A stretch of DNA of 64,000 nucleotides from Deltaproteobacteria bacterium (GTDB lineage Bacteria > Myxococcota_C > UBA6777), in NCBI GenBank assembly GCA_002731275.1, contig PCBK01000112.1, positions 62,001 to 126,000 on the forward strand. The letters run 5' to 3'. The position numbers and the translations under genes are program-made. Positions 23,002 through 45,192 of this stretch are shown in pieces; the first letter of the stretch is position 1; each line of letters opens with the position of its first letter. The notes beneath the pieces were generated by a model. It worked only from the letters and a program-made list of their open reading frames with translations. It was not told where the DNA came from and searched no databases.

Positions 23002-24468
23002 ATGAAATTCCGTCAATTGTTTTTGATCACGCTAGGCCTGTTTCTCCTTGGAAGCCCTCACTTTTTAGCTGGTTGTGCAGCTCCACGTTGTGGTGATGGT
23101 GTCATTCACAAAGACGTCACTGACGCAGATGGTAACACCCTCAACGAAGAATGTGATGACGGCAACAGCGATAACAACGACTCCTGTACCAACCAATGTA
23201 CCATCGCAAAGTGCGGTGATGGCATCGTACAAGTCGGCATCGAAGAGTGTGACGATGGCAACAAGGAAGACACTGACGCCTGCACGAGCCAATGCAAGCT
23301 CGCGACTTGTGGTGATGGCTTTGTCCAAAAAGACAAAGAAGCCTGTGACGATGGCAACAAAAATAACAACGACGCCTGCCTCAATACCTGTGTAGAGAAC
23401 ACATGCGGTGATGGATTCCTCAACAAAGACAAAGAAGAATGTGACGACAAAAACTACAACGACAACGACAGCTGTCTCAACAACTGTAAGCTCGCGACCT
23501 GTGGAGATGGAAAGCTCCACGTAGGCGTCGAACTCTGCGACGATGGTAATAAAGATGATAAGGACACTTGCTTGAGCACCTGCACCCTCTCCACCTGTGG
23601 TGATGGCATCGTACAAGCAGGCGAAGAGTGCGACGACGGAAACAAAAACAACAACGACGAGTGCCTCAACACCTGTGTCAAAGCCACCTGCGGTGATGGA
23701 TTTGTTCAGACAGGTACAGAAGAGTGCGACGACGGCAATAAAAACGATAATGACAGCTGCTTGAGCACGTGTAAAAACGCCACCTGTGGTGACGGAAAAG
23801 TCAACAAAGGCGTTGAAGAATGTGACGATGGAAACACCGATGATGATGACCTCTGCACATCAAAGTGCAAACTCGCGACCTGCGGTGATGGCATCAAGCA
23901 ACCAGGCGAAGAATGTGATGATGGAAACAAAAATGACAACGACGCCTGCCTCAACACCTGCAAAAACGCGACCTGTGGTGATGGTGTCATCCAAACAGGT
24001 AAAGAAGAATGTGATGACGGAAACACCAAAAGCGGTGACTGGTGTGATAGCTCCTGTAAAAAAGAATGTACGATCGGAAATGCCCGCAAGTTAGACGGAA
24101 ACAGCTGCTATGTGAAGTTCAACACTGCGCTGAGTTGGCGTGATGCGTCCGCAGCATGCTCGATCCTCGGTGCACACCTCGTCAGCATCGGCTCTGGTGG
24201 CGAAAACACTATCGTCGCAGGTCTTACAGGAAGTAGCCCCGCGTGGATCGGCCTCACAGATCAATACAGCGAAGGTACTTTCGTCTGGGATGAAGGCAAT
24301 AACAAATACATTACAATGACATACAGCGACTGGGCGGCCAATCAACCAGACAACGGTCCTGGCGGAAACGCCGACTGTACAGAGATCATCTCTAGCGGAA
24401 GGTGGTCCGACCGCGCCTGCACCGGCCTCCTCAACTACATTTGTGAATACGAGTGGCCCAGCAAATAA
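23002..24468 (+). CDS. DUF4215-repeat lipoprotein with C-terminal C-type lectin domain
   Basis: 488 residues, CGGAGG site. Lipobox FLAGC (C25). Ten tandem Cys-rich units CGDGxxxxGxEECDDGNxxxxDxCxxxC (DUF4215, ~residues 31-353) form an Asp/Asn-rich, probably Ca-binding stalk. From ~356 follows a C-type lectin-like domain: CYVKFNTALSWRDASAAC, AWIGLTD, NQPDN, DCTEI and GRWSDRACTGLLNYICE. The QPD motif plus WSD are the residues that bind calcium and favour galactose in animal lectins of this fold. Likely a surface adhesin. Followed by the larger DUF4215 gene at 24617. Confidence 0.88.
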   Translation: MKFRQLFLITLGLFLLGSPHFLAGCAAPRCGDGVIHKDVTDADGNTLNEECDDGNSDNNDSCTNQCTIAKCGDGIVQVGIEECDDGNKEDTDACTSQCKLATCGDGFVQKDKEACDDGNKNNNDACLNTCVENTCGDGFLNKDKEECDDKNYNDNDSCLNNCKLATCGDGKLHVGVELCDDGNKDDKDTCLSTCTLSTCGDGIVQAGEECDDGNKNNNDECLNTCVKATCGDGFVQTGTEECDDGNKNDNDSCLSTCKNATCGDGKVNKGVEECDDGNTDDDDLCTSKCKLATCGDGIKQPGEECDDGNKNDNDACLNTCKNATCGDGVIQTGKEECDDGNTKSGDWCDSSCKKECTIGNARKLDGNSCYVKFNTALSWRDASAACSILGAHLVSIGSGGENTIVAGLTGSSPAWIGLTDQYSEGTFVWDEGNNKYITMTYSDWAANQPDNGPGGNADCTEIISSGRWSDRACTGLLNYICEYEWPSK

Positions 24469-24527
24469 TCCCTCCCTCCGGAGGTCAAGCCCCCAAAACT
24501 TTGTGTTTTGGGAATGATGGTTTCTCA

Positions 24528-24600
24528 TGTGGTGCGCTTGATAAACAAACATATGAATGAGAGCGGCGAGCTTGTCGCTCTCATAGCTCATCGCACCACA
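24528..24600 (+). promoter_or_regulatory. Nested hairpin in the leader of the DUF4215-kelch gene
   Basis: An outer 9-bp stem, TGTGGTGCG (24528-24536) with CGCACCACA (24592-24600), encloses a perfect 9-bp hairpin ATGAGAGCG (24557-24565) / CGCTCTCAT (24576-24584). The outer stem ends only four bases before the GGGAGG ribosome binding site of the next gene. A further hairpin CCCAAAAC/GTTTTGGG (24492-24512), without T run, lies just upstream. Confidence 0.5.
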
Positions 24601-24616
24601 CATCGGGAGGAAGAAA

Positions 24617-27600
24617 ATGAAACGACTCATCCTGGTCCTTTTTGCAGGCTTCGTGCTCTTTTCGCACGGCTGCTCCTGTAGTGGACCTGTATGTGGCGAT
24701 GGGATCCTTCAAGAAGGCGAAGAGTGCGATGATGGCAATCAAGACAACAACGACGCCTGCTTGATCACCTGTCAGATCGCTAAATGTGGCGATGGGGTCC
24801 TTCGCAAGAAAACGGAATTATGTGACGACGGAAACGCAGACGACAAAGATGGATGCACCTCAAAGTGTACCCTCGCCACCTGTGGCGATGGCATCGTCCA
24901 AACCGGCGAAGAATGCGATGACGGAAACACGAGCAACCTCGACGAATGCACCACAACCTGCGTCAAAGCCTCTTGTGGCGATGGCTTCAAGCAACCAGGC
25001 GAAGAGTGCGACGACGGCAACCAAAACAACGACGACTACTGTACCAATGACTGCAAACTCTCCTCCTGTGGTGATGGAAAAGTCCAACAAGGTGAAGCCT
25101 GCGACGATGGTAACAAAGTCGACAATGATGGCTGTTCCAATCGCTGCACGCTCCCTGTCTGTGGCGATGGTATCGTCCAAACAGGCGAAGAGTGCGACGA
25201 CGGCAACAAAAACAACAACGACAGCTGCCTCAACACCTGCGTCAAAGCACGATGTGGCGATGGTATCGTAAACAGAGATAAAGAACTCTGTGATGATGGC
25301 AACCAAGATCGCGATGATGGGTGCACAGAACAATGCACCCTGCCCACTTGTGGAGATGGTGTCCTTCAAGACGGCGAAGCCTGTGATGATGGAAACGCCG
25401 ACAACACAGACGGATGTCTCAAGACCTGTGTCAAAGCCAACTGTGGCGACGGATTTGTCCAGGCAGGCAAAGAAGAGTGTGACGATGGCAACAAACGCAA
25501 CACTGACGCTTGCCTCAACACCTGCAAACAAGCCACCTGTGGCGATGGTATCATCCATGCAGGGATCGAGGGATGTGACGACGGAAACAAGGACAACAAC
25601 GACGCCTGCCTCAACACCTGCAAAAATGCCACCTGTGGCGATGGGTGGGTGAACAAAGGCGTCGAAGATTGTGACGACACCAACCGTGACAATACAGACG
25701 GTTGCCTCGTCAATTGTCGTGCCTTCGATCCTTGTAAAGACTTTGCGATCAAAGAACTCAAACCTGCTGTCGCCTGTATCGTCAGTGTCCCCAATCAGAC
25801 CCGCATCATAGGCGATGGCTTCCTCAAGATCGATGGAAAACAACCCTCCGTCACCTTCCAGGCCCAGCCTGCACAGATCCTGAGTATGAGTGGTTGCCAA
25901 CCTGTACAAGGTGTCTTCGCACAAGTCGAAAAGTGTACGGAGATCACCATCGCGCTTCCAACTGGTCTGACACTTGGAAATTACCAAATCGAAGTGACCA
26001 ACCCCAGCACAAAGCAATGTCGTGCGACGGCAACCTTTAGTATCGGCCCTGCGCCGAACATCGCGAGCGTCACACCTGTCGAGCTTTGTGAAGGACGTCC
26101 CGGAAACTTCGTGATCAAAGGCAGTGGCTTTACCGCCTCTACTGAGGTCACCTTCGACAACCTTAAACCTGATAACGTCCAATTTGTCAGCGCAACAGAG
26201 CTTCACGTCGCCTTCTCAAAGCTTCCGCCGGGTCGCTATGATGTCACCGTCGCAAATGGTTCGAGTTGCAGCACGACAAAGAAAGATGTCGTCACGGTCT
26301 ACAAAAACCCCATCGCGTTCTTTGTCGATCCAGAGGTCGAGTACAACGCCATCAGCGTGAACTCGACGATCTACCTCTCGGGACTTAACGGACCCAATCT
26401 CGTCTTTGTCGGGATTCGTCCTTCAGGTGGAGCGGCGACGTATACGTCCCTCAACTTCACGTTTGACGTCAATCGACCGAATATCGCACAGGCAACGATC
26501 CCCAAAGGTTTGACACCTGGAAAATACGAGCTGTTGATCCGTGACGGTAAAACATGTGAATTTGTCCTACCTGACGCGATCAACATCACCAACACTGTCG
26601 ACATGGCGCTCTCCAGCGTGACTCCACCCTTTGGTTGGACACAAAGTCAGACACCTGTCACACTCAACGCTGACAACCCCCCACCTACAGGAAAGAAGTC
26701 CTTCCAAAATGGTGTGCGTGTCTACTTCAACCCATCAGGAGGTTCGGGGCTTGCGACATCTCTCACTGCGGTCGCCTATGTCAACCCAGGTTCTACAACC
26801 GCAGTGGTCCCCAAACTCCCAGTTGGAGAGTACGATGTGATTGCGGTCAATCCGGACGGCTCCGTCGGTGTTCTCACCAAGGGCTTTAAGGTCACGACCA
26901 ATCCACCTCCCACGATCGACGCGATCTCACCGGGCTCGATCGCCAACAAAGACACCCCCAACGTCCGAATTGATGGCGGTGGATTTGCGACGACAGGTAC
27001 ACTTCAGGCCCGCCTGACCTGCCGTGCACCTTCAGGCGCCACCTCCACTCACACACCGACCATTGCCTCGCGTACGACATCACAAGTAAACATCACGATC
27101 AGCTCGGCTGCGACGCTACTCGAAGGCAGTGTGTGTATTATCAGAATCACCAACCCTGATGGGACGTATGCCGACTATTCGGCCCTTGGTGTCACAGGTC
27201 CATCACTTAATATCTCGGCTTTCAAAGCTGGAAAAGATATGGTGACTGCGAGACGCGCCCCTGCCACAACATCAGGACGCCCAACACGTGCTGCGCGCTT
27301 CTTGTACGCAATAGGTGGTGACAGTGGCACGACAAGTGGCGCACTTGACAGTATGGAGACCGTCTCTGTCGATCGCTTTGGTGCGATGAATACATGGCGT
27401 ACGCTCCCCACAAAGCTTCCCGAAAAGCTGACCTTTGCAGGTGTACAACGGATCGGTCGCTTTTTGTACCTGACAGGCGGAAACAACGGCAGCAACACCT
27501 CCAACAAGATGTACAGAGCCAAGATCCTCGATCCTGGCTTTGCACCACAGATCAACGATGTATCCCTCAGCGTCGAAACAACAGGTGTTGGTGTAGGGCT

Positions 27601-28591
27601 TTGGTACTACAGGGTCTCAGCGGTGATGGGTAACACCGATCGAGACAATCCCAATGGAGAGACACTCCCAGGCGATCCACAGCCCATCAAGATACCAGCG
27701 ATTCTCCAGCAAAAAGTCCACATCAAGCTCACCTGGAATGCTGTCCCCGGCGCGGTTCGATACAGGATCTATCGTAGCCCCACACCAGGACTCGTCTCTG
27801 GAAAGGAAACGTTGCTCGCAACTGTGAGCGCGCCGACGACGACATTCACTGACAAGAACACACAGACACCACAGAGCGACATCCCACGTGTCCTTGGTGA
27901 TCTTGGAGAGTGGCGTCAGATAGGTAACATGACCACTCCCAGAGAAGGTCATGGGCTCGGCATCGCCAAAGATCCTACAACCGCGAATGTTTGGTATCTA
28001 TACGCAGTCCTTGGACGTAGCGGTAGCACCAACCACCGCTCCTACGAATACCTACGTGTGTCTGTCGACAGTCAGGGTGTTCACACTGTCGGTAATTGGA
28101 CCGCTGACGCAACAAACCTCGTCCCAACAGGACGTTGGCAAGTGGCAGCGTTCTCCGTCGATCGAGTGGCCTCAACACGTGTGGGTGCCAGTGACACCTA
28201 CATTTACGCAGGTCCAGGCATTGGCGCTCTGTCCGCTGTCCAGGTCGGGAAAGTCCAGGCAGGCGGAAAGTTGAGCAGCTGGCAGACAGTCTCAACCGCA
28301 ACGCCCGGCTATGCAGGCTATGGCTACGCTGCCGCAGCAGACCAACTGTTCATCTTTGGTGGACAGGCTAGCGCACCTGATACATCGAGTAAATCGACGG
28401 AGATTTGTGGAACGGGCAGCAAGTGCAAAAAAAGCGCTGTTCCTCCTGAGATCCGAGGTTGGAACGCAGGTATCAGCTTACGCACAGCCCGTTACTTGAT
28501 GGGGACAGCGATTGAGAGCGCCCATATCTACATCATCGGCGGAAACAACGCTTCTGGTCCCATGAAGACGACAGAAAGCACCGTTTGGTAA
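24617..28591 (+). CDS. Large DUF4215 - IPT/TIG - kelch-like surface lipoprotein
   Basis: 1324 residues. Signal with FSHGC (C19, probable lipidation). Eleven DUF4215 units [16 protein letters not shown]...C (~26-368) are followed by four or five IPT/TIG-like Ig folds (~373-860; e.g. [36 protein letters not shown]). The C-terminal part has kelch-type blades ([45 protein letters not shown]), interrupted at ~979-1084 by a fibronectin-III-like stretch ([26 protein letters not shown]). Probably an extracellular binding or adhesive protein; no catalytic motif seen. Units are closely related to those of the gene at 23002. Confidence 0.88.
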
Positions 28592-35075: not shown

Positions 35076-35636
35076 ATGAAAAGTACACGTGCACACTTGC
35101 ACGACGAGACAGCCCCCATACACAAACAGCTCGATCAGCTCATCAGCACGTCCTCGCCTTTTGCCGATGAGGAAAAGTACGCCCTCTACCTCACGCGTAT
35201 GGAGCAGCTATACGTTCTTTTCTCCACACCACTCGATGAGATCGCCCAAAGAATATCTCTCCCTGTGATGTCATCGCACATCAAAAAGAGCATTGAGCAA
35301 GACAAGGCGACCTTACCAAAGATCGCTCTCTCTCAAACACTCCCCATTCAATGTTGGTCTCTCGACGAAAGCTGGGGCATCACCTACACACTTGAAGGTT
35401 CGACGATGGGCGCGAGATATTTGTTACGCACCGCGCGTGAACAGCTCCCCCACCGCTCACATACCTTCCTTGAGCAGGTCGCACAAACAGGAAAGGAGCG
35501 ATGGCCTCGCTTCTGTGAAGCGCTTGAGTCCTCTGGATGTACTCGCGAGCAAGCGACACGTGGCGCACAGGCAGTCTTCCACACAGCGCTGACACTCTTC
35601 GAATCCACGCACGACACCACAGAGGACGTGATATGA
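35076..35636 (+). CDS. Biliverdin-producing heme oxygenase
   Basis: 186 residues; AGGAG ten bases before the ATG. Degrades heme to biliverdin, CO and iron. The proximal ligand is H16 in LHDETAPIHKQLD; the distal helix glycines are in TYTLEGSTMGARYL. This is the bacterial HemO/BphO type found beside phytochromes. Its stop overlaps the start of the phytochrome gene (ATGA), so enzyme and apo-photoreceptor are made together and the biliverdin should serve as chromophore. Confidence 0.9.
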   Translation: MKSTRAHLHDETAPIHKQLDQLISTSSPFADEEKYALYLTRMEQLYVLFSTPLDEIAQRISLPVMSSHIKKSIEQDKATLPKIALSQTLPIQCWSLDESWGITYTLEGSTMGARYLLRTAREQLPHRSHTFLEQVAQTGKERWPRFCEALESSGCTREQATRGAQAVFHTALTLFESTHDTTEDVI

Positions 35637-38164
35637 CAGACCATTCAAATGATCACATCACACAAGTCGCGCTCTCCAACTGTGACAAAGAACCTGTCCA
35701 TATCCCTGGACGCATCCAGTCCTTTGGCTCGATGTTGGGCTTTGACCTCAAGACAGGAACGTTGCGTTACTACGCGGAGAATATCGGGACGCTGTTTCCG
35801 GAGCTCTCCTCGTTAACGTTTGGTACGCATTTTGAGAAAGTGTTTGCCAACAGATATATCGTCCACGCGATAAGAGGTGGTCTGGGGCTGCCAACGCTCC
35901 AAAATCACAGAGAACGCCTGGGGTCGTTCGAACTAGGACACAAACACGTCGATATCGGTATGTACACAAGCGATGGAACGTTTGTCCTAGAGTTGGACCC
36001 CATCCCTCCTCCGAGTGGGGTATTGCGCTCCCCCATCCACCTCGTTCAAGACCTTTTGTCGACATTGACGACCAACCAAGGCATCTCACCTCTCCTCGAC
36101 TCGGCAGTGCAAGCATTCCGCCATCTCACGGGCTTTGATCGCGTCATGGCCTATAAGTTTCTGGACGACGGCGCAGGCGAAGTTGTAGCCGAAGCAAAAG
36201 CACCAGGACTCGAACCTTTCCAGGGCTTGCGATATCCAGCATCGGATATTCCGCAGCAAGTCCGCCAGATCATGCTGCGTATGCCTTTTCGAACGATCGC
36301 AGACACAAACGCTCCTGCGACGTCTATCATCGCACAAGACGACACCCCCCTCGATATGACCCTTGGGCACCTGCGCGGTGTCTCCCCCATCCACATCGAA
36401 TACTTGGGAAACATGGGTGTACAAGCGACGATGAACGTCTCGATCCGCGTGCGCAACCGACTTTGGGGACTCTTTGCCTTTCACCATGAGCTCAAAAAGG
36501 TCCTCACTCCAGACGAACGCTCCACGTGCGAGATCTTCGGCCAACTTGTCTCGATGTTGATCCAACAAGAACTCGAAAATGAAGGTCTACAAGCTCGTCA
36601 GAGAGTCCAGTCACTCGTCCGCAGTCTCTCCACCAGGCGCATCGAGGTGGACCTCTTTCTTGCGGAGTACGCAGAGCCTTTGATGAAAGCACTTCATGCA
36701 GATGGGATCTGTGTAAAGCAAGGCGAAGAGTATGTAATGCAAGGTCAAACACCGACCAAAGAGATCACGCAAAAGCTCATAGAGCTTCCCTCACAAGGAC
36801 TCTTGGCGCTCGACTCTCTCAAGAGGGTCAAAGGCTTACATACAGCCTCGTTAAACACCACCGCCGGAGCTCTGGTGATGAAAATCAGCGCTGACACTTA
36901 CTGTATCTTTTTCAGGCAGGAAGTACTCCAACACATCCGCTGGGCAGGGGACACACAAAAAAAGATCGAATACGGTCCAAACGGTCCAAGGCTCAGACCA
37001 CGCTCCTCCTTTGAAGAGTACAAAGAGACCGTCGCAAATCGCAGCGTGCCCTGGTCTGCTGCCGATGTCTCCGTCGCGAGCGAGCTACGGCACGCTTTGT
37101 GGCGAGTCCTACTCCCAAAAACAGAAGGCTACTCGCTGGAGTGGGAGCAGGAGCGACGGTTACGTGACCTGTTGATCGCAGAACTTAACCACCGCGTTCG
37201 CAACACGCTCTCCTTGGTCAATGCCATCGCACAGCAGTCCAAACACTCCGCGACTTCCGTGGAGCATTACGTCAACACACTTGAAAAACGCATCAACTCA
37301 CTCTCAACAGCACACTCCTTCATCGGCACTGGGCTACAGTGGGCACGTATTCAAGATTTCATTACGATGGAACTGCAACCATACAAACACGGAGACTTCG
37401 ACCTGCACGTCGAAGGAGAAGATGTCGCCGTTCGCGCAGATATCGCGCCCATCATCGCACTGCTCTTTCACGAGCTCAGCACAAACTCCGTCAAATACGG
37501 CGCGCTGTCGAGTAAAAAAGGTTCTCTTAGTATCACATGGCATCGACAGGATGGAGGATACCTCATCCAATGGCATGAACAACTCGAAGCGCCTATCGCT
37601 CCCCCCACACGAAAAGGCTTTGGGTTGACTCTGATCGAACGTGCTATCGACTTCGAGTGTAAAGGCCACTCCAGCATCCGCTTCGAAGAGGAGCGTGTCT
37701 CAATCGATATCTGGCTGCCTTTGGAGCTGATCATGGATGTCGACAGCGAACCTTCCTCTTCGGAAACGCTCCAACCCCCCAAGCCGCTCGAAAAAAGAAC
37801 CCTCTCCTACCAATCTGTCCTAATTGCTGAGGACAACTTCCTCCTCGCGATGGAGTTGGAGAAACAGCTTCAACAACTAGGTTGTAAAGAGATCGACATC
37901 CACGCCAACACAACATCGCTCAAACAAGCCCTTGAAAGACACACATACGACGTCGCCTTGCTTGACATCCAGCTTGGCAATGAGACCTCTTTCGAGGTCG
38001 GCTTGATGCTGCTCGCGAAGGGAACCAAGATCGTCTTTCTCAGTGGATACGAACGACGAGATGATTGCCCACCTGCTCTAAGACAATGTGTACACCTTAT
38101 CAAACCCGTCGATAAAGTTGATCTGCTTTTCGCGCTCTCAAACCAGGAAAAATCCACCCCATGA
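35633..38164 (+). CDS. bphP: Bacteriophytochrome hybrid histidine kinase
   Basis: 843 residues. Red/far-red photoreceptor. PAS domain with the biliverdin-binding Cys at C17 (SNCDKEPVHIPG); GAF domain with PASDIP (202-207), H246 and H254 in HLRGVSPIHIEYLGNMGV; PHY domain whose tongue has PRSSF (456-460). The output is an HWE/HisKA_2 kinase: H520 in AELNHRVRNTLSL, FHELSTNSVKYGA and GFGLTLIERA. A C-terminal receiver follows (~725-843; D778 in VALLDIQLG). Start ATG 35633 overlaps the heme oxygenase stop, and the stop overlaps the next kinase start, both as ATGA. Receivers fused to HWE phytochromes can accept or drain phosphate; direction here is open. Confidence 0.95.
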   Translation: MTDHSNDHITQVALSNCDKEPVHIPGRIQSFGSMLGFDLKTGTLRYYAENIGTLFPELSSLTFGTHFEKVFANRYIVHAIRGGLGLPTLQNHRERLGSFELGHKHVDIGMYTSDGTFVLELDPIPPPSGVLRSPIHLVQDLLSTLTTNQGISPLLDSAVQAFRHLTGFDRVMAYKFLDDGAGEVVAEAKAPGLEPFQGLRYPASDIPQQVRQIMLRMPFRTIADTNAPATSIIAQDDTPLDMTLGHLRGVSPIHIEYLGNMGVQATMNVSIRVRNRLWGLFAFHHELKKVLTPDERSTCEIFGQLVSMLIQQELENEGLQARQRVQSLVRSLSTRRIEVDLFLAEYAEPLMKALHADGICVKQGEEYVMQGQTPTKEITQKLIELPSQGLLALDSLKRVKGLHTASLNTTAGALVMKISADTYCIFFRQEVLQHIRWAGDTQKKIEYGPNGPRLRPRSSFEEYKETVANRSVPWSAADVSVASELRHALWRVLLPKTEGYSLEWEQERRLRDLLIAELNHRVRNTLSLVNAIAQQSKHSATSVEHYVNTLEKRINSLSTAHSFIGTGLQWARIQDFITMELQPYKHGDFDLHVEGEDVAVRADIAPIIALLFHELSTNSVKYGALSSKKGSLSITWHRQDGGYLIQWHEQLEAPIAPPTRKGFGLTLIERAIDFECKGHSSIRFEEERVSIDIWLPLELIMDVDSEPSSSETLQPPKPLEKRTLSYQSVLIAEDNFLLAMELEKQLQQLGCKEIDIHANTTSLKQALERHTYDVALLDIQLGNETSFEVGLMLLAKGTKIVFLSGYERRDDCPPALRQCVHLIKPVDKVDLLFALSNQEKSTP

Positions 38165-40449
38165 AGGACCAAACAACGCGGCACAAGACACAACCCATCG
38201 TCTTACTGGTGGAGGATGATCTTGTCCTCGCACGTCACTGGCAGCAAGCCCTGGAAGCTCAACAATTCCGAGTTCTCCACGCGGACTCCGCATCGCATGC
38301 GATCGATATCATTAACAAGAAGTCCCCTCACGTCGTGATCACCGACATCCTCGTCAAAGATCTCGAAGGGAAAGTGACGATGCTCGGCGGTGTTTTGATT
38401 CTCTCCCACATCGCCTTGTTAACAGAACAATCCCCCAAGGTACTTGCAATCACAGGGATGAGTACAGACTCGTCCTTCTTCGCGTCCTTTAAGCTGCTCG
38501 AAAACACAAACGCCGTGCGAAAACCAGTCACCGCTGATGAAGTCGTCGAAAAAGTCAGCGCCCTCGCAGCTCAATTCGAACAAGAGAAGGAACAGGAACG
38601 AGAAAAACAACGTATCCAACAGGAATTGGTACACATCAGCGAATCCAACCGCGCCATGCTCGATTTGCTCGGAGCATCCGACGGAGTATGGGATTGGCAC
38701 GTGGGGACCGATGACATCACCTTCGCACCAGGATGGCGAAAGATGCTCGGCTATGATGGAGACGACGTCACCAACGTCCCCAACTCCTGGAAAGCCCTGA
38801 TCGCGTCCATCCACAAACAAGATCAGCAAGCCTTTCAAAGCTGCATCGCAGAACACATCAACCCGACCTCACGAGCAGAAAAGACACGCCACTTCTTCCA
38901 TGAGGTGCGTATCCAACACCAGGACAAATCTTTTGTCTGGCTTCGCTTTCGAGGCGTTGTCAGTTTTGATCCCCAAGGAAATGCCACAAGAGCAGTCGGC
39001 TCAGCCCACGACATTACCCAACAAAAACAAGCTGAGTTGGAACGAGATCGATTCTTTCGTTCATCCACCGATTTGTTTGGCAGCTTTCATCTGTTCCAAC
39101 ACAAGTGGCTGAAAATAAGCAAAGGGCTCTCCGACCTTGTCGGTATACCAGAAGCACAAGTATACAAAAGAACCAGCCCACAACTGCTCCACCCCGATGA
39201 CAGAGGGGTCTTCGCCAACGCACTTGAAGAGCTCAAAGCAGGCAAGTCGATACGTGGCTTGAGCACGCGCATTCGCTCACTCAAACAAAACGATTACCGC
39301 TGGCTCGAATGGTACGCACAACCACCACAAGAAGGCGAGGCACTCGCCTATCTCACCGCACGTGATACCACAGAGTTGGAAGTCTCTTTTTTGTCCCGAC
39401 TTGGCAAACTACTCCCCCTTGGACTCGTCGTGGTTGACGTGCAAGAGAACCAAACCCTCTACCACAACGGATATCTCGAACAATACACCTCCCAAAACAC
39501 CGAACAAATCTGGGAAGGCTGGCGAGATATCATGCCAGAAGATGACGTCTCACGCTGGTTACAAACCATCGAGACACTTAGAACATTGCCCGATCAACAA
39601 AGCGTCGAGTACGAATTCACCATGTACTCTGCCGAAGGCGAGCCCCACCACTTCGTAGGCTCTTACTCCCCCTTCAAACGCTCTGCAGAGGGCAACGTCC
39701 ACCAGGTGATTGGTATCATTGTGAGGCTCGACGAACTGGAAGCTCTCAAACAATACGCACGACGTCTCGAAGCTACCAACCAATCCCTCGAACAATTCAC
39801 TTACGTCGCATCTCATGACTTGAAACAGCCACTACGAGGCATCCAAACACTCGCGGAGTGGATTTGGGAGGATACACAAGACCTGCTCCCAGACGAGTCT
39901 AAGCAACACCTCAACAAGCTCCTCACAAGCGTCCAACGTATGACCAAGCTCCTCACAGAGCTGCTACACTACGCAAAGGCAGGACAAACAAACACTCCCC
40001 CAACCACCTTCAACCTCCACGACACCATCGCAGACATCATCAACTTACTCTCACCACAAATGGGATTTGTCATCACCAACAACACCCCCTCCGTCCCTAT
40101 CACGACCTCTCAAACGGAGTTCGAGCAGGTCCTGCGAAATCTCATCCACAACGCGATCAAGCACCACGATAAAGAGAATGGTCATATCGAAGTGAACGCG
40201 ATGATAGATAAACGTACCAACACCTTGGAGTTCGACGTCCAAGATAACGGTCCGGGCATCCATCCAAAATTTCACAAGCGCATTTTCGAAATGTTCCAGA
40301 CACTGACACCTCGCCACAAGACCGAAAGCACGGGGATTGGACTCACACTCGTCCAACGACTCATCCTCCTCCAAGGCGGCTCCATCAGCCTCACATCAGC
40401 GCCCGGCGAAGGCACAACGTTCCAATGTACATGGCCGCTCAGAGCATAA
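38161..40449 (+). CDS. REC-PAS-PAS-PAS histidine kinase (phytochrome-linked)
   Basis: 762 residues. N-terminal receiver is complete (D19, D20, D62 in VVITDILVKD, T98, K121). About three PAS-like segments follow: ~165-295 (DGVWDWHVGTDDITFAPGW, LGYDG, AHDITQQKQ), ~300-415 and ~420-535. The kinase core has H552 in FTYVASHDLKQPLRG, RNLIHNAIKHHD, DVQDNGPGI and GIGLTLVQRL, similar to phytochrome-type kinases. Starting with a receiver, it should take phosphate from another kinase, most simply the phytochrome encoded immediately upstream with an ATGA overlap. No stand-alone output regulator follows. Confidence 0.92.
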   Translation: MKDQTTRHKTQPIVLLVEDDLVLARHWQQALEAQQFRVLHADSASHAIDIINKKSPHVVITDILVKDLEGKVTMLGGVLILSHIALLTEQSPKVLAITGMSTDSSFFASFKLLENTNAVRKPVTADEVVEKVSALAAQFEQEKEQEREKQRIQQELVHISESNRAMLDLLGASDGVWDWHVGTDDITFAPGWRKMLGYDGDDVTNVPNSWKALIASIHKQDQQAFQSCIAEHINPTSRAEKTRHFFHEVRIQHQDKSFVWLRFRGVVSFDPQGNATRAVGSAHDITQQKQAELERDRFFRSSTDLFGSFHLFQHKWLKISKGLSDLVGIPEAQVYKRTSPQLLHPDDRGVFANALEELKAGKSIRGLSTRIRSLKQNDYRWLEWYAQPPQEGEALAYLTARDTTELEVSFLSRLGKLLPLGLVVVDVQENQTLYHNGYLEQYTSQNTEQIWEGWRDIMPEDDVSRWLQTIETLRTLPDQQSVEYEFTMYSAEGEPHHFVGSYSPFKRSAEGNVHQVIGIIVRLDELEALKQYARRLEATNQSLEQFTYVASHDLKQPLRGIQTLAEWIWEDTQDLLPDESKQHLNKLLTSVQRMTKLLTELLHYAKAGQTNTPPTTFNLHDTIADIINLLSPQMGFVITNNTPSVPITTSQTEFEQVLRNLIHNAIKHHDKENGHIEVNAMIDKRTNTLEFDVQDNGPGIHPKFHKRIFEMFQTLTPRHKTESTGIGLTLVQRLILLQGGSISLTSAPGEGTTFQCTWPLRA

Positions 40450-40611: not shown

Positions 40612-43600
40612 ATGGACACACAATCGCAAAAGGACTTGTTTTCGGACAAACAAGAAAAATGGCTGCTCATCCTGGGCAGCGATTGGGCTGCCTCCAACGG
40701 CATCCCCCTCAGCCACCACCGTACACGCTGGTCCCCGAGTGTCAGCGACCTTGTACGCTACGAACTCTTTCGCACACAGAGCCATGAAGTCTTTGAACGC
40801 ATGGAGTCAGAGCTAGGCATCAATCGTCCCCCACTCGGCCTCATCGCCGACACCCTCGAAGCACAAAACGAATGGCTTCAACAACACATCCAAGGCACAA
40901 AACCCTCCAAAACCGCCTTTCGGCTCGCAGACCTCGCCAAAGGCGGTATGTTCTCACACGTCTTCTCAAGCACCCCCGATGACCTCTTTGAGCAAGCCCT
41001 TGACGCCCTTCATGTCCCCTACCTTCACTACGGACTCGAACACAGCCTGTCTCCAAACGCCGACGTCCTCCCCATCCTCAAAGAGTGGGACGACCGCATC
41101 TTTAACGACACAAAAGAGCGCCTTCAGAGAGAAAACCGACTCATCGAGATGCAGCTTCAACAGGCTCTCCAACACACAGACTCCATCCTCATCGTAGGAC
41201 ATCACCCCCACCCAACAGGCGTCCTCTCCGTCCTCCTCAAACAACTCGAAGAAGACACACAGCGCAAGATCGTCTGGATCTTCGAAGAAGAGCTCCTCTC
41301 CCTCCAACAAGACATCGCCGCACGAGACGACTCCCCACTCGCAATATTCACCCAAAGAGCCCCCAACTTCACCAAACACACGACAGAAGCGCTCGCCGAT
41401 TGGCTCCAAGAGATCGCAGAGATCAGGGACATCCCACAGACCCCCTTCAAGGTCATCGAACAACACAACAAAGACACCTCAAGCATCCTCAACAAGACCT
41501 ATGATCTCCGCCCCATCTTCGTCTATGTACCCGGTCTTAACATCTTCTCAAGCTACTTCAAACAAGCCCTTGAGGTCTCCCTGCGCACACTCTTGAGCGT
41601 CGCAACGCTCCTCATCCTCCTCTCAAGTGGATACCATTACTACACCTATCGCAGCTTCTCACAGAAAGAAAAACCCCTACGTGACGCGCTCACACGCCTT
41701 CAATCGCTCATCGGTACCAACACAACATCGCCGACCGCAAAAGACACGCAGCAAATCAACAAGCAAAACGAGCTCAAAGTCTTCTTACATGCCCAACAGC
41801 AGGCCTTCCAACTCGCGACAAACCTGCGAGCCTTCAAACGACCCAAACGCAGCTCACTCGTCGTCCCAATGCTCACACAACATATGCACAATCGCCTCGA
41901 TACAATAGGCAAAAAGGTCCGACATATCCTCCAACAGAAGGTCGCTCTGGGGCTTTACAGAGAGCGCCTGAAGGTCGTCTTACACGGCCACCCAAACATG
42001 CAAAGTATGGGGTACTACGACAAGCTCATGGTCAGCGCCCGCGACCTCAGTAAACCCCTCGCCGCGACACGTTACGCCCGAAACAAACTGCCGAGACGTT
42101 TGCAAAGATACCGAAGACACAAACGATACATGCTCTACTACAGAAGTGGCTCCTTCCTCCAGAATGTGATGCGCAAAGAGATGCTCGCCACACCCCAAAA
42201 ACGACTCGCCGTCTCCATTCACGTCCCCACACGACAAGAAGAGATCGTCGAGCTGATCAAGGAGAGCTTCCTCGACACCATCCAATCGCGCTCACAATAC
42301 AAAGATATCATCACGACACGTATGGTCAGACAGCTCCTCAAAAAGGGCAAAATCTCCGTCTATATCCCAACCTTCGATGCGGCAGAGAGTCTCACCAACG
42401 CCGTCGGAAAGCTCCGCGAGTTTATATCGAGCTTCCCCGACGCCCCGCTGCGACTGGGTGTCTCCCGAAAAGCCTCGAAGCAAGCCCTGCTCCCCAAACT
42501 CAAGTCCTTCACATACCTCGCCATCGAACCATACACCTACGAAGCGTCCAGGGATTACCTCAGACAAAACACCTCCTACAAATACAGCCAAAGCGTCCAT
42601 GACAACACATACCTTCGGTGGAACTGGACCGATCCACTGATCCGTACGTTGCTCATCGACACCTATCACAAAGTCGGTGAAGCCCCCAGAAGTCTGGGAC
42701 TTCTCTACCAAAGACTCCTTCAAACGATGCTCTCCAGGGGCAAGTGGAGCCAAGTCTTAAAGTTCCGTATGCTCGAACGACTCGCCTATGAAAAGTCACA
42801 GATGGAAAGACCTCTGCGAGAAGACAAGGCGATCATGTCCATCGCCAAGGCGCTCGCTGGGAGCAGTCAGCCCATGCATTACATCAAACAGGCGACCTCC
42901 ATCCTCAAAGAATGTGCCCAAAATGGTGTGCTCTTGTTCCACCCGAAAGACGGCTTGAGACTCACAGACAAACGCTTTGACTACGTCTTCCTCTCACGCG
43001 CCCTGTCAAACAAACCCCTCAAAGAGAAGAAACATCTGCTGCTGCGAATGCCCAAGGAGATGACCGCATTCTACGCTGGCCTGAGTCCCTCCGTTGAACG
43101 TCTCGTCAAGAGCTGGCTCGATGATTACAACAGCATTGAAACACTCTACCGCGAAAAGAATGTCGACCTGCTCTTCGCCAACCCATACTTTTACAACATC
43201 TCACGGTCCGTGGTCGCGGTCTCCAATGGCATCCACTCTCACACACTCACAAAACGAGTCGAGTCCATCCTGATCAAGCAGATCAACAACTGGAACACAT
43301 ACGTTCAATACCACTCCGTGCTCAACGCGATGGAGTTGCCCACACCACGTATCCAAGAGTGGTTGATCGCCAGTCTCGACAAGAACGCGCCCTACGACTA
43401 TCGCATCCCCGGTGTCATGAGAAATGTCACAAACCTGAGCTTCATCGTGTCTGTCAAAAGGTGGCTCAATCGTATCTGTACCCCCAAAGACCGAAGATTC
43501 CAGCACCGATGGCGATATGGACATCAGAAGTTACCTGTCGGACAAAGACGCCTTCAGATCAACAACAAGTGGGCGATTACACAAGCACTTGGTGCACTCG

Positions 43601-45192
43601 TCAAAATGAACACACCTGATAGCATTCGCTTCGTCAAACGATGGGCACAACGTGAACACGATAAGCGATTCCACCCTGTCGATTGGCGATACATCCGCTC
43701 ACAAGCGATGCTCAGCCTCGCACACATTGGTCTATATGGCCCCCTCAAATCACTCTACCCGACGCTCAAAAAACACCCAGAACAGTGGTGTTACTATGGT
43801 GACAGAGGCAACACGAGCCAGCGGTATTATTGTGTCATCAACAAGCTCGGTCAGGTCAACGACAAGGACACCGCGAAGCTGCTCGTCTCGCTGATGATGA
43901 AGAAGGAACCACTCACACCTTCTGTATTGCGTTACAAGAGCGAGGCTGTGACAGCCCTCGCACGAATCGATGACGAGATCGTCTTTCCACTTATCGACCC
44001 CATCTTGAAACAACCGCTCCCCAAGGAAGGTCCCGACCTACGTGTCTTTGCAGCGATGTTGTGTAGTTACAAGAACAACAAGAAGCGCTTCCCGTGGGTC
44101 AAAAAAATAGTCCGCGCCCATCTCACCTATTTTCCCACGCTCAAACACAAGCAGGCCACACAAATCCTCACGAGGATGGACATGAACGCGTTGATAGGAT
44201 TTCGCTCAAAGCGCGCGTTTGAGGTCTTCAAAGAGCTCATCTCCCACAAAAAGTGGCTAAAACGTGCGGCTCCGAACACCCTCACAGGGCTTGCATTCTT
44301 CCGTATCCCAGAGAAGACCGCCTTTATGCGCAGACTGCTCTACTGTGAGGTGCTCCCCGTCTCCTACCGAAAACAACTGTACAAGGTCATGTATCTCAAC
44401 AAGAAAGAGATCGGGTATCACGAGATGTTGAGTCGCAGCCTTCAGATGCTCGAAGAAGGTGTCGACAAGGTGCATCTCCAAACGTTATGTGGCAAGCAGA
44501 CGCCTGTGACGCTCTCGGCCAAAGAGCGTCTCATCATGATGACCAGTGGAATCGCCGCGCTCGCGAGGTTCCAACAGAGCACAGATATCGCTCGCCTCTC
44601 TGTGTACACACGTTCACCAAACAAGTACATCAAACAAGCGGCGATAAAAGCTCTTGGGACCTTCCAAACACAGCAAGCGAGTGACGCGCTCGCGAGGATC
44701 TACACCTCCAACCCCAAGCTCAAATACGCCTACCTGCGTGCACTTCATCAGCAACGTATGCCTTACAACGCCAAGAAGTTTGTCGCGATGCTCAAAAAGG
44801 AGCGCAACTTTTACTACAGGATGTATTTGTTCTACTATCTGCAAAAGGCAGGTAATGAAGATGCTCTGATAACGGTCTTCCCGTACCAGTACGCCAAGCG
44901 AAAACGCCTCAACCAGGGTGCGCGATATGCGTTCTACAAAGTTGCCATGCAGTTGAAGGGACACCTGACACAGCTCGAAGCCCTCAAGAAGCAGATCAAA
45001 GCGATGCCCAAAATGCCAGACAGCGCGAGGAAAGTGTTCTTTAACTGGCGCACCAAAGCCCTCGATAAAGCCTCCGCGAAACGAGAAGCCCGCCGAAAAG
45101 CAGCCCTTCGTCGACGTGCTGCTCATCGAAAATCCGCTCTTCGTAGACGTGCTGCCTCAAAGCCTTCGACCTCAAAAACCTCAAAGCCATAA
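40612..45192 (+). CDS. Giant degenerate SIR2-like / TM / NACHT-like / HEAT-repeat protein
   Basis: 1526 residues from ATG 40612 (GGAG nine bases upstream). Residues 18-32, LLILGSDWAASNGIP, resemble the glycine loop of SIR2-like domains; VFSSTPDDLFEQAL (107-120) sits where 'TTN.D.LLE.AL' is expected and SILIVGHHPHPTG (191-203) where 'ILF.GYS..D' is; the catalytic His-Gly is not visible. A hydrophobic helix lies at ~319-346. Residues ~507-800 follow the order of a NACHT NTPase but without key residues: YRSGSFLQNVMR for the P-loop (no GKS/T), ISVYIPTFDAAESL for Walker B, LRLGVSRK for sensor 1, LRLTDKRFDYVFLSRAL for the usual 'F.H..FQEYLAA..L'. HEAT-like helices occupy ~1000-1470 and a Lys/Arg/Ala tail the last 40. 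Domain calls are by eye. Confidence 0.6.
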   Translation: MDTQSQKDLFSDKQEKWLLILGSDWAASNGIPLSHHRTRWSPSVSDLVRYELFRTQSHEVFERMESELGINRPPLGLIADTLEAQNEWLQQHIQGTKPSKTAFRLADLAKGGMFSHVFSSTPDDLFEQALDALHVPYLHYGLEHSLSPNADVLPILKEWDDRIFNDTKERLQRENRLIEMQLQQALQHTDSILIVGHHPHPTGVLSVLLKQLEEDTQRKIVWIFEEELLSLQQDIAARDDSPLAIFTQRAPNFTKHTTEALADWLQEIAEIRDIPQTPFKVIEQHNKDTSSILNKTYDLRPIFVYVPGLNIFSSYFKQALEVSLRTLLSVATLLILLSSGYHYYTYRSFSQKEKPLRDALTRLQSLIGTNTTSPTAKDTQQINKQNELKVFLHAQQQAFQLATNLRAFKRPKRSSLVVPMLTQHMHNRLDTIGKKVRHILQQKVALGLYRERLKVVLHGHPNMQSMGYYDKLMVSARDLSKPLAATRYARNKLPRRLQRYRRHKRYMLYYRSGSFLQNVMRKEMLATPQKRLAVSIHVPTRQEEIVELIKESFLDTIQSRSQYKDIITTRMVRQLLKKGKISVYIPTFDAAESLTNAVGKLREFISSFPDAPLRLGVSRKASKQALLPKLKSFTYLAIEPYTYEASRDYLRQNTSYKYSQSVHDNTYLRWNWTDPLIRTLLIDTYHKVGEAPRSLGLLYQRLLQTMLSRGKWSQVLKFRMLERLAYEKSQMERPLREDKAIMSIAKALAGSSQPMHYIKQATSILKECAQNGVLLFHPKDGLRLTDKRFDYVFLSRALSNKPLKEKKHLLLRMPKEMTAFYAGLSPSVERLVKSWLDDYNSIETLYREKNVDLLFANPYFYNISRSVVAVSNGIHSHTLTKRVESILIKQINNWNTYVQYHSVLNAMELPTPRIQEWLIASLDKNAPYDYRIPGVMRNVTNLSFIVSVKRWLNRICTPKDRRFQHRWRYGHQKLPVGQRRLQINNKWAITQALGALVKMNTPDSIRFVKRWAQREHDKRFHPVDWRYIRSQAMLSLAHIGLYGPLKSLYPTLKKHPEQWCYYGDRGNTSQRYYCVINKLGQVNDKDTAKLLVSLMMKKEPLTPSVLRYKSEAVTALARIDDEIVFPLIDPILKQPLPKEGPDLRVFAAMLCSYKNNKKRFPWVKKIVRAHLTYFPTLKHKQATQILTRMDMNALIGFRSKRAFEVFKELISHKKWLKRAAPNTLTGLAFFRIPEKTAFMRRLLYCEVLPVSYRKQLYKVMYLNKKEIGYHEMLSRSLQMLEEGVDKVHLQTLCGKQTPVTLSAKERLIMMTSGIAALARFQQSTDIARLSVYTRSPNKYIKQAAIKALGTFQTQQASDALARIYTSNPKLKYAYLRALHQQRMPYNAKKFVAMLKKERNFYYRMYLFYYLQKAGNEDALITVFPYQYAKRKRLNQGARYAFYKVAMQLKGHLTQLEALKKQIKAMPKMPDSARKVFFNWRTKALDKASAKREARRKAALRRRAAHRKSALRRRAASKPSTSKTSKP

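Follow-up and report, generated by a model that had tools for sequence, protein, structure and literature searches.

Does a protein built like a nucleotide-binding leucine-rich repeat receptor (NLR) still have work to do once the motifs of both its enzyme and its switch are gone? The question is raised by a gene at positions 40612 to 45192 (forward strand) of the window, the 64,000-nucleotide stretch of a Deltaproteobacteria bacterium analysed here (contig PCBK01000112.1). NLRs and STAND (signal transduction ATPases with numerous domains) proteins are usually seen as switches that are driven by nucleoside triphosphates (NTP) and activate an effector. The product of this gene has a SIR2-fold head and a NACHT-type STAND module, both without their catalytic motifs, and the same losses occur in every known homologue. 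It is probably a membrane-anchored pseudo-NLR, derived from a protein of the SIR2-STAND type, that has lost cleavage of nicotinamide adenine dinucleotide (NAD) as well as NTP hydrolysis and may serve as an NTP-independent scaffold or receptor.

Folds, motifs and layout of the protein

The reading frame is uninterrupted from the ATG at 40612, the same start as in the aligned homologues, to the stop codon at 45190-45192 (1526 residues). It encodes a SIR2-fold head, one predicted membrane helix, a helical linker, the NACHT-type STAND module, HEAT repeats and a basic tail, in this order. The features are as follows (pI, isoelectric point; AF2, AlphaFold2).

40612..45192, + strand: whole gene, candidate pseudo-NLR of 1526 residues; open frame, alignable nearly end to end with three homologues
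40612..41466, + strand: SIR2-fold domain, residues 1-285, catalytic motifs gone, pI about 5.3; AF2, Foldseek against PDB, VIA-align Z 13-17
40675..40710, + strand: NAD-binding loop remnant GSDWAASNGIPL, residues 22-33, replacing GAGxS..SGIP; alignment and hhalign register
40966..40983, + strand: SSTPDD, residues 119-124, aligned with TTNxD, Asp retained but T or A where the catalytic Asn would be; hhalign register, SS[TA]PDD in 4/4 members
41080..41094, + strand: KEWDD, residues 157-161, aligned with K-x-HG and identical in four members; hhalign register and alignment
41566..41634, + strand: single predicted transmembrane helix, about residues 319-341; Kyte-Doolittle 1.9-2.5, same alignment position in four members
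41650..42060, + strand: long-helix linker, residues 347-483, the least conserved part; AF2 helices 324-368, 377-407 and 419-459, 19-24% identity to other members
42061..43041, + strand: NACHT-type STAND module with winged-helix region, residues 484-810, nucleotide motifs gone; hhalign, structural Z 12-14
42127..42159, + strand: shortened P-loop position YMLYYRSGSFL, residues 506-516, a two-residue loop joining strand to helix; hhalign four-residue gap, AF2 strand 507-510 and helix from 513, motif absent
42349..42393, + strand: degraded Walker B, KISVYIPTFDAAESL, residues 580-594; aligned by hhalign with (L)LLLDGLDE
43042..45021, + strand: helical arm and HEAT repeats, residues 811-1470, basic; HEAT_2 Pfam match, AF2 helices as far as residue 1010
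45022..45189, + strand: Lys/Arg/Ala-rich C-terminal tail; sequence, pI 10.4 for the part after the membrane helix

The head was modelled as residues 1-286 by AlphaFold2 with only four input sequences, and reached a mean predicted local distance difference test score (pLDDT) of 62, with 70-86 across much of the core. The first 20 Foldseek matches in the PDB are all SIR2 proteins (best E-value 6e-7), including SPARSA, KomC, SIR2-HerA, sirtuins, ThsA, DSR2 and Avs5. With VIA-align the model superposes on the SPARSA SIR2 domain with Z 17.4 (210 residues, root-mean-square deviation 3.3) and on that of Avs5 with Z 14.4. Profile comparison with SIR2_2 proteins is weak (probability 20-30%, E-value 1e-3), with the motifs in correct order and register; thus the fold assignment of the head depends on the structure model. 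Low-threshold and global alignments agree on four pairings: GSDWAASNGIP with GAGxS, SSTPDD with TTNxD, KEWDD with the strand of HG, and IVGHHP with that of IGYS.

In all four members of the family the SIR2 motifs GAG, TTN and HG are replaced by GS[HD], SS[TA]PDD and KEWDD. At the catalytic positions (alignment and hhalign register) Asn has become T or A, and His has become W or E. The strings GAG, T[TQS]N and HG do not occur in residues 1-330 of any member. Beyond mere loss, the former TTNxD and HG strands look rebuilt, because 17 of the 21 positions in SSxPDD..EQA and KEWDDxIFxD are invariant, against 84 of 285 for the whole domain (hypergeometric p 6e-7, calculated on what are effectively three sequences).

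For the central module, we compared residues 484-810 with a profile of 23 NACHT proteins from other genomes. The match covers 290 columns from the P-loop strand through the winged helix (hhalign probability 98.2%, E-value 5.7e-14). In control comparisons, neither the NACHT-like segment against SIR2 nor other segments against NACHT gave a match. There is no Pfam NACHT match. The structure model (pLDDT 70) superposes on NLRP14, NLRP3, NOD2 and NLRC4 with Z 12-14, and Foldseek matched it to CED-4 and plant NLRs with weak E-values. The P-loop is about four residues shorter than in NACHT proteins, and only R511-S512 separate strand and helix in the model. Walker A (GxxxxGK[ST]) is found in 0/4 members, and GK[ST] occurs nowhere in the window protein. 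At Walker B, where NACHT proteins have LLLDGLDE, the family has IPTFDAAE, FLNLDTGG or FTQIEQAG; neither the first Asp nor the last Glu is kept.

A segment near residues 319-341 is the most hydrophobic in 4/4 members and runs on into long helices; this predicted membrane helix overlaps the long AF2 helix 324-368. Just before it lies a weaker hydrophobic segment (residues 299-315, with invariant VPG..FS) that could contact the membrane as well. The pI is 5.3 for the acidic head and 10.4 for the strongly basic part past the membrane helix. The latter has a pI of about 10 in every member, compared with mostly 4-9 for other genes of the window. HEAT_2 is the sole Pfam family over the cut-off (E-value 2.7e-12, best stretch 1314-1373; 2e-18 in the G004 orthologue introduced below), and HEAT repeats were also the only match when the entire protein was compared with Pfam, NCBIfam and PADLOC. 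Profiles of the family, run against the sequences of the PDB, produced no convincing match.

Most of what the original prediction had drawn from pattern reading is borne out, and each check that it named turned out in its favour. The SIR2-like, NACHT-like and HEAT assignments agree with structure prediction, the hhalign NACHT match and Pfam HEAT_2, and unrelated folds did not appear for the N-terminal and central regions. A membrane helix had been placed between effector and NTPase, and one strong hydrophobic segment does lie there, at the same alignment position in 4/4 members. The SIR2 part had rightly been described as lacking the Asn of TTN.D and the His-Gly, and a misaligned intact GKS/T or HG, raised as a possible source of error, is excluded: these strings are missing from the relevant regions of all members, and the only exception is a stray YGKSRT in the G002 and G004 copies, distant from the P-loop. 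All homologues share the losses. Two claims required revision. The loss of the P-loop Lys holds, but the change is larger than claimed, as it extends to the length of the loop. For Walker B, the loss of the second acid had been noted; the first Asp is gone as well as the final Glu.

Family, selection and gene neighbourhoods

Four members are known: the window gene, a paralogue in the same genome (a metagenome-assembled genome, MAG, of 10.75 Mb), and one copy in each of two related MAGs, MAG.451 and KLAP109, deposited as Myxococcota bacteria (the G002 and G004 copies). The paralogue (L018:7692-12515, contig C109) is longer than the window gene; it and the orthologues have 1606-1608 residues, and three MAGs are involved in all. 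The phylum was sampled with five genomes, and genome scans of both genomes of a third genus gave no member. No further members were found in scans of up to 386 species at once, viral contigs, phages and plasmids. Weak matches outside the family are HEAT repeats or ordinary NACHT proteins, and one that was inspected had an intact P-loop. The paralogue has 55% identity to the two MAG copies in the head and 40% in the NACHT-like part, compared with 39% and 29% to the window copy. As C109 is nearer to the MAG copies, the window gene is the divergent paralogue.

The ratio of nonsynonymous to synonymous substitution rates (dN/dS) between the G002 and G004 copies is 0.074 for the head (confidence interval, CI, 0.039-0.130), 0.076 for the NACHT-like part (CI 0.042-0.111) and 0.124 for the HEAT part, with 0.11 overall; the 'dead' domains are thus no higher than the HEAT part. 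Between the window copy and its paralogue, synonymous sites are saturated. Judged from these sequences, the motif losses are traits of the family, with no sign of decay. The low dN/dS is incompatible with decay of the gene family, and a pseudogene or assembly error was rejected for the family on its open frames, its presence in three MAGs and this slow evolution. For the window gene itself, decay or an assembly artefact is highly improbable: every catalytic site is lost, as such a reading would have it, but there are 1526 open codons, full-length relatives, and strong constraint between the two orthologues.

Directly upstream on the same strand (35076-40449), 162 bases before the pseudo-NLR gene, is a row of genes for haem oxygenase, a bacteriophytochrome (HWE kinase plus receiver) and a second hybrid kinase of receiver-PAS-histidine kinase layout. 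Downstream are a polysaccharide deacetylase and metabolic genes. No signal exceeding chance was found for a promoter upstream of the gene or a terminator downstream of it. Neighbours of the other copies differ from these. Genes for ABC1-family kinases are near two of three independent loci (L018:6050-7438 and L016:3386-5056). We considered this kinase as a conserved partner of the C109 and G002/G004 copies, but rejected it: the kinases are just 31% identical and their arrangement is different.

At the extreme end of the paralogue gene begins a macro-domain gene (L018:12434-12973, PF01661, E-value 1.5e-23). Macro domains bind ADP-ribose, the product of active SIR2 proteins. Also on L018 are two adjoining similar genes for small proteins resembling DUF2202 ferritin-like proteins (L018:12998-14406, by eye). 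The second gene upstream of the G002 copy (L016:13653-15857) reads by eye like one for a type III secretion/flagellar export protein (SctV/FlhA). The window's own genome also encodes another NACHT protein (L003) with an intact P-loop (GEFGIGKTT), preceded by an apparent TIR domain and followed by WD40-like repeats (by eye). Elsewhere in the window, two adjacent genes (23002-28591) have 7 and 10 DUF4215 repeats; a C-type lectin domain ends one of them, and kelch and TIG domains occur in the other. No Rfam families or tRNAs were found within the window.

Proposed function and alternatives

Folds, motif losses, selection and the predicted membrane helix are results of computation; what we infer is that the basic part binds a ligand, that the signal reaches the head, and that the rebuilt face binds a partner. 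The ligand of the large, basic NACHT/HEAT part would be polyanionic or a protein. A shape change would then travel via the linker helices and the membrane helix to the SIR2-fold head, with no NTP switch involved. As a scaffold or receptor, the head may work through protein binding by its SSxPDD/KEWDD face, which is invariant and looks rebuilt. The membrane-anchored pseudo-enzyme that the original prediction had proposed is supported by the shared losses and low dN/dS. Nothing points to a role in defence: no defence island was recognised around the family loci (Pfam for the window neighbours, by eye at other loci), and PADLOC profiles gave no match to the window protein up to an E-value of 10.

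Several points weigh against an inactive scaffold or receptor. Inactivity is itself deduced from sequence, and the sequences known are effectively only three different ones. Avs5 is an active NADase with NG where HG is expected, and it has an unusual Walker B (PMC12931631). Since Avs5 works with NG, a lost His is by itself weak proof of inactivity; the window family loses Asn and GAG besides His. The C109 paralogue (1/4 members) has SKSS at the P-loop position, a Lys-Ser without the glycines. There is no conserved partner or operon gene across the family loci. A single membrane helix would put the head and the NACHT/HEAT part on opposite sides of the membrane, and the charges flanking it leave the orientation undecided.

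In a bolder form of the proposal, which we regard as tentative, an NLR-like receptor without an NTP switch might have its NACHT/HEAT part and its head on opposite sides of the inner membrane and signal by shape alone through the rebuilt NADase pocket, used as a binding site or as a new active site. Hypothetically, with a single crossing and the head inside, the NACHT/HEAT part would lie in the ATP-free periplasm, which would explain the lost P-loop. Its high positive charge speaks somewhat against its export.

Alternatively, the SIR2 pocket may have become a different active site, formed by the acids that are invariant in SSxPDD..E and KEWDD..D. The strands making up the pocket have at least five invariant acids at their ends, in stretches that are among the most conserved of the protein. 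However, structure searches of the PDB brought up no protein family that carries such a site on a SIR2 fold, the middling confidence of the head model makes the geometry of the acids unreliable, and the conservation is equally compatible with a binding face. We therefore consider a repurposed enzyme unlikely. We are similarly doubtful that the protein is a decoy or a dominant-negative regulator of active SIR2/STAND defence proteins. Inactive enzyme copies have been proposed as decoys in conflict systems (PMC7159879), and SIR2 and NACHT folds are frequent among defence parts. But no SIR2_2 protein was detected in the five sampled genomes of the phylum, so there is no obvious partner to mimic; defence genes were not recognised next to the loci, and the evolution is slow where fast evolution would be expected. 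Also rather improbable is a STAND protein with cryptic activity and some other way of binding nucleotide. SAMD9, which lacks the P-loop Lys, may still bind NTP (PMC5445408), and the odd Walker B of Avs5 (PMC12931631) and the SKSS retained in C109 point in the same direction, but the P-loop here has shrunk to about two residues and lost its glycines.

On the favoured reading of a membrane-anchored pseudo-NLR, the family retains the full NLR architecture under strong purifying selection despite the lost switch and enzyme motifs, and has added a membrane anchor. It is thus a natural test of what the scaffold can do by itself, and of the origin of pseudo-NLRs such as SAMD9 and inactive STAND (iSTAND) proteins. 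A caution is that look-alikes of SIR2-STAND proteins should not be tallied as NADase defence genes.

Comparison with known systems

The closest architecture is that of Avs5 (AVAST type 5, SIR2-STAND), which shares the N-terminal SIR2 fold, central STAND module and C-terminal helical repeats. To act in defence, Avs5 depends on the Lys of Walker A and on two residues of TTNxD, Asn and Asp (PMC12931631). Unlike Avs5, the window family has no catalytic Asn, GAGxS or Walker A, and a membrane helix separates the head from the STAND module. The SIR2 domains of SPARSA (SIR2-APAZ), ThsA and DSR2 are the closest structures to the head; these proteins are NADases, whereas the catalytic Asn and His are missing in the window family. 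By profile comparison, bNACHT proteins have the NACHT core and the winged-helix region in common with the window family, which lacks their nucleotide motifs and a Pfam NACHT match.

iSTAND proteins, which have lost the Walker motifs, have been proposed as sensors in MoxR-vWA ternary systems and in BREX BrxB (PMC7159879, PMC12839542), and nucleic acid binding has been proposed for inactive STAND modules (PMC7159879, PMC8195603, PMC12839542). The STAND core devoid of Walker motifs is shared. Unlike the iSTAND proteins of MoxR-vWA systems, the window family evolves slowly rather than fast and has no MoxR or vWA neighbours (none in the window by Pfam, none recognised by eye at other loci). It also retains a helical region past the core as well as HEAT repeats, and a SIR2-fold head is undescribed for iSTAND.

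In SAMD9, a variant Sir2-like domain is joined to a STAND-like domain with the P-loop Lys changed to Gly (PMC5445408). SAMD9 and SAMD9L share with the window family this order of a variant Sir2-like domain and then a STAND module lacking the P-loop Lys. SAMD9, however, has AlbA_2, TPRs and an OB fold, and keeps the GGT/S signature where the P-loop of the window family is shortened; a membrane helix is undescribed there. We found no Pfam match for AlbA_2 ahead of the head, where the SIR2 fold starts within the first residues and leaves no space, and none for a C-terminal OB fold, in a protein whose structure models reach residue 1010.

Judged on the features tested, the window family is not part of either iSTAND or SAMD9. 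A literature search, which left subscription journals mostly uncovered, found no membrane protein that joins a pseudo-SIR2 to a pseudo-NACHT domain. With iSTAND and SAMD9 as precedents, what is new is the combination of the double motif loss with a membrane anchor and a HEAT solenoid.
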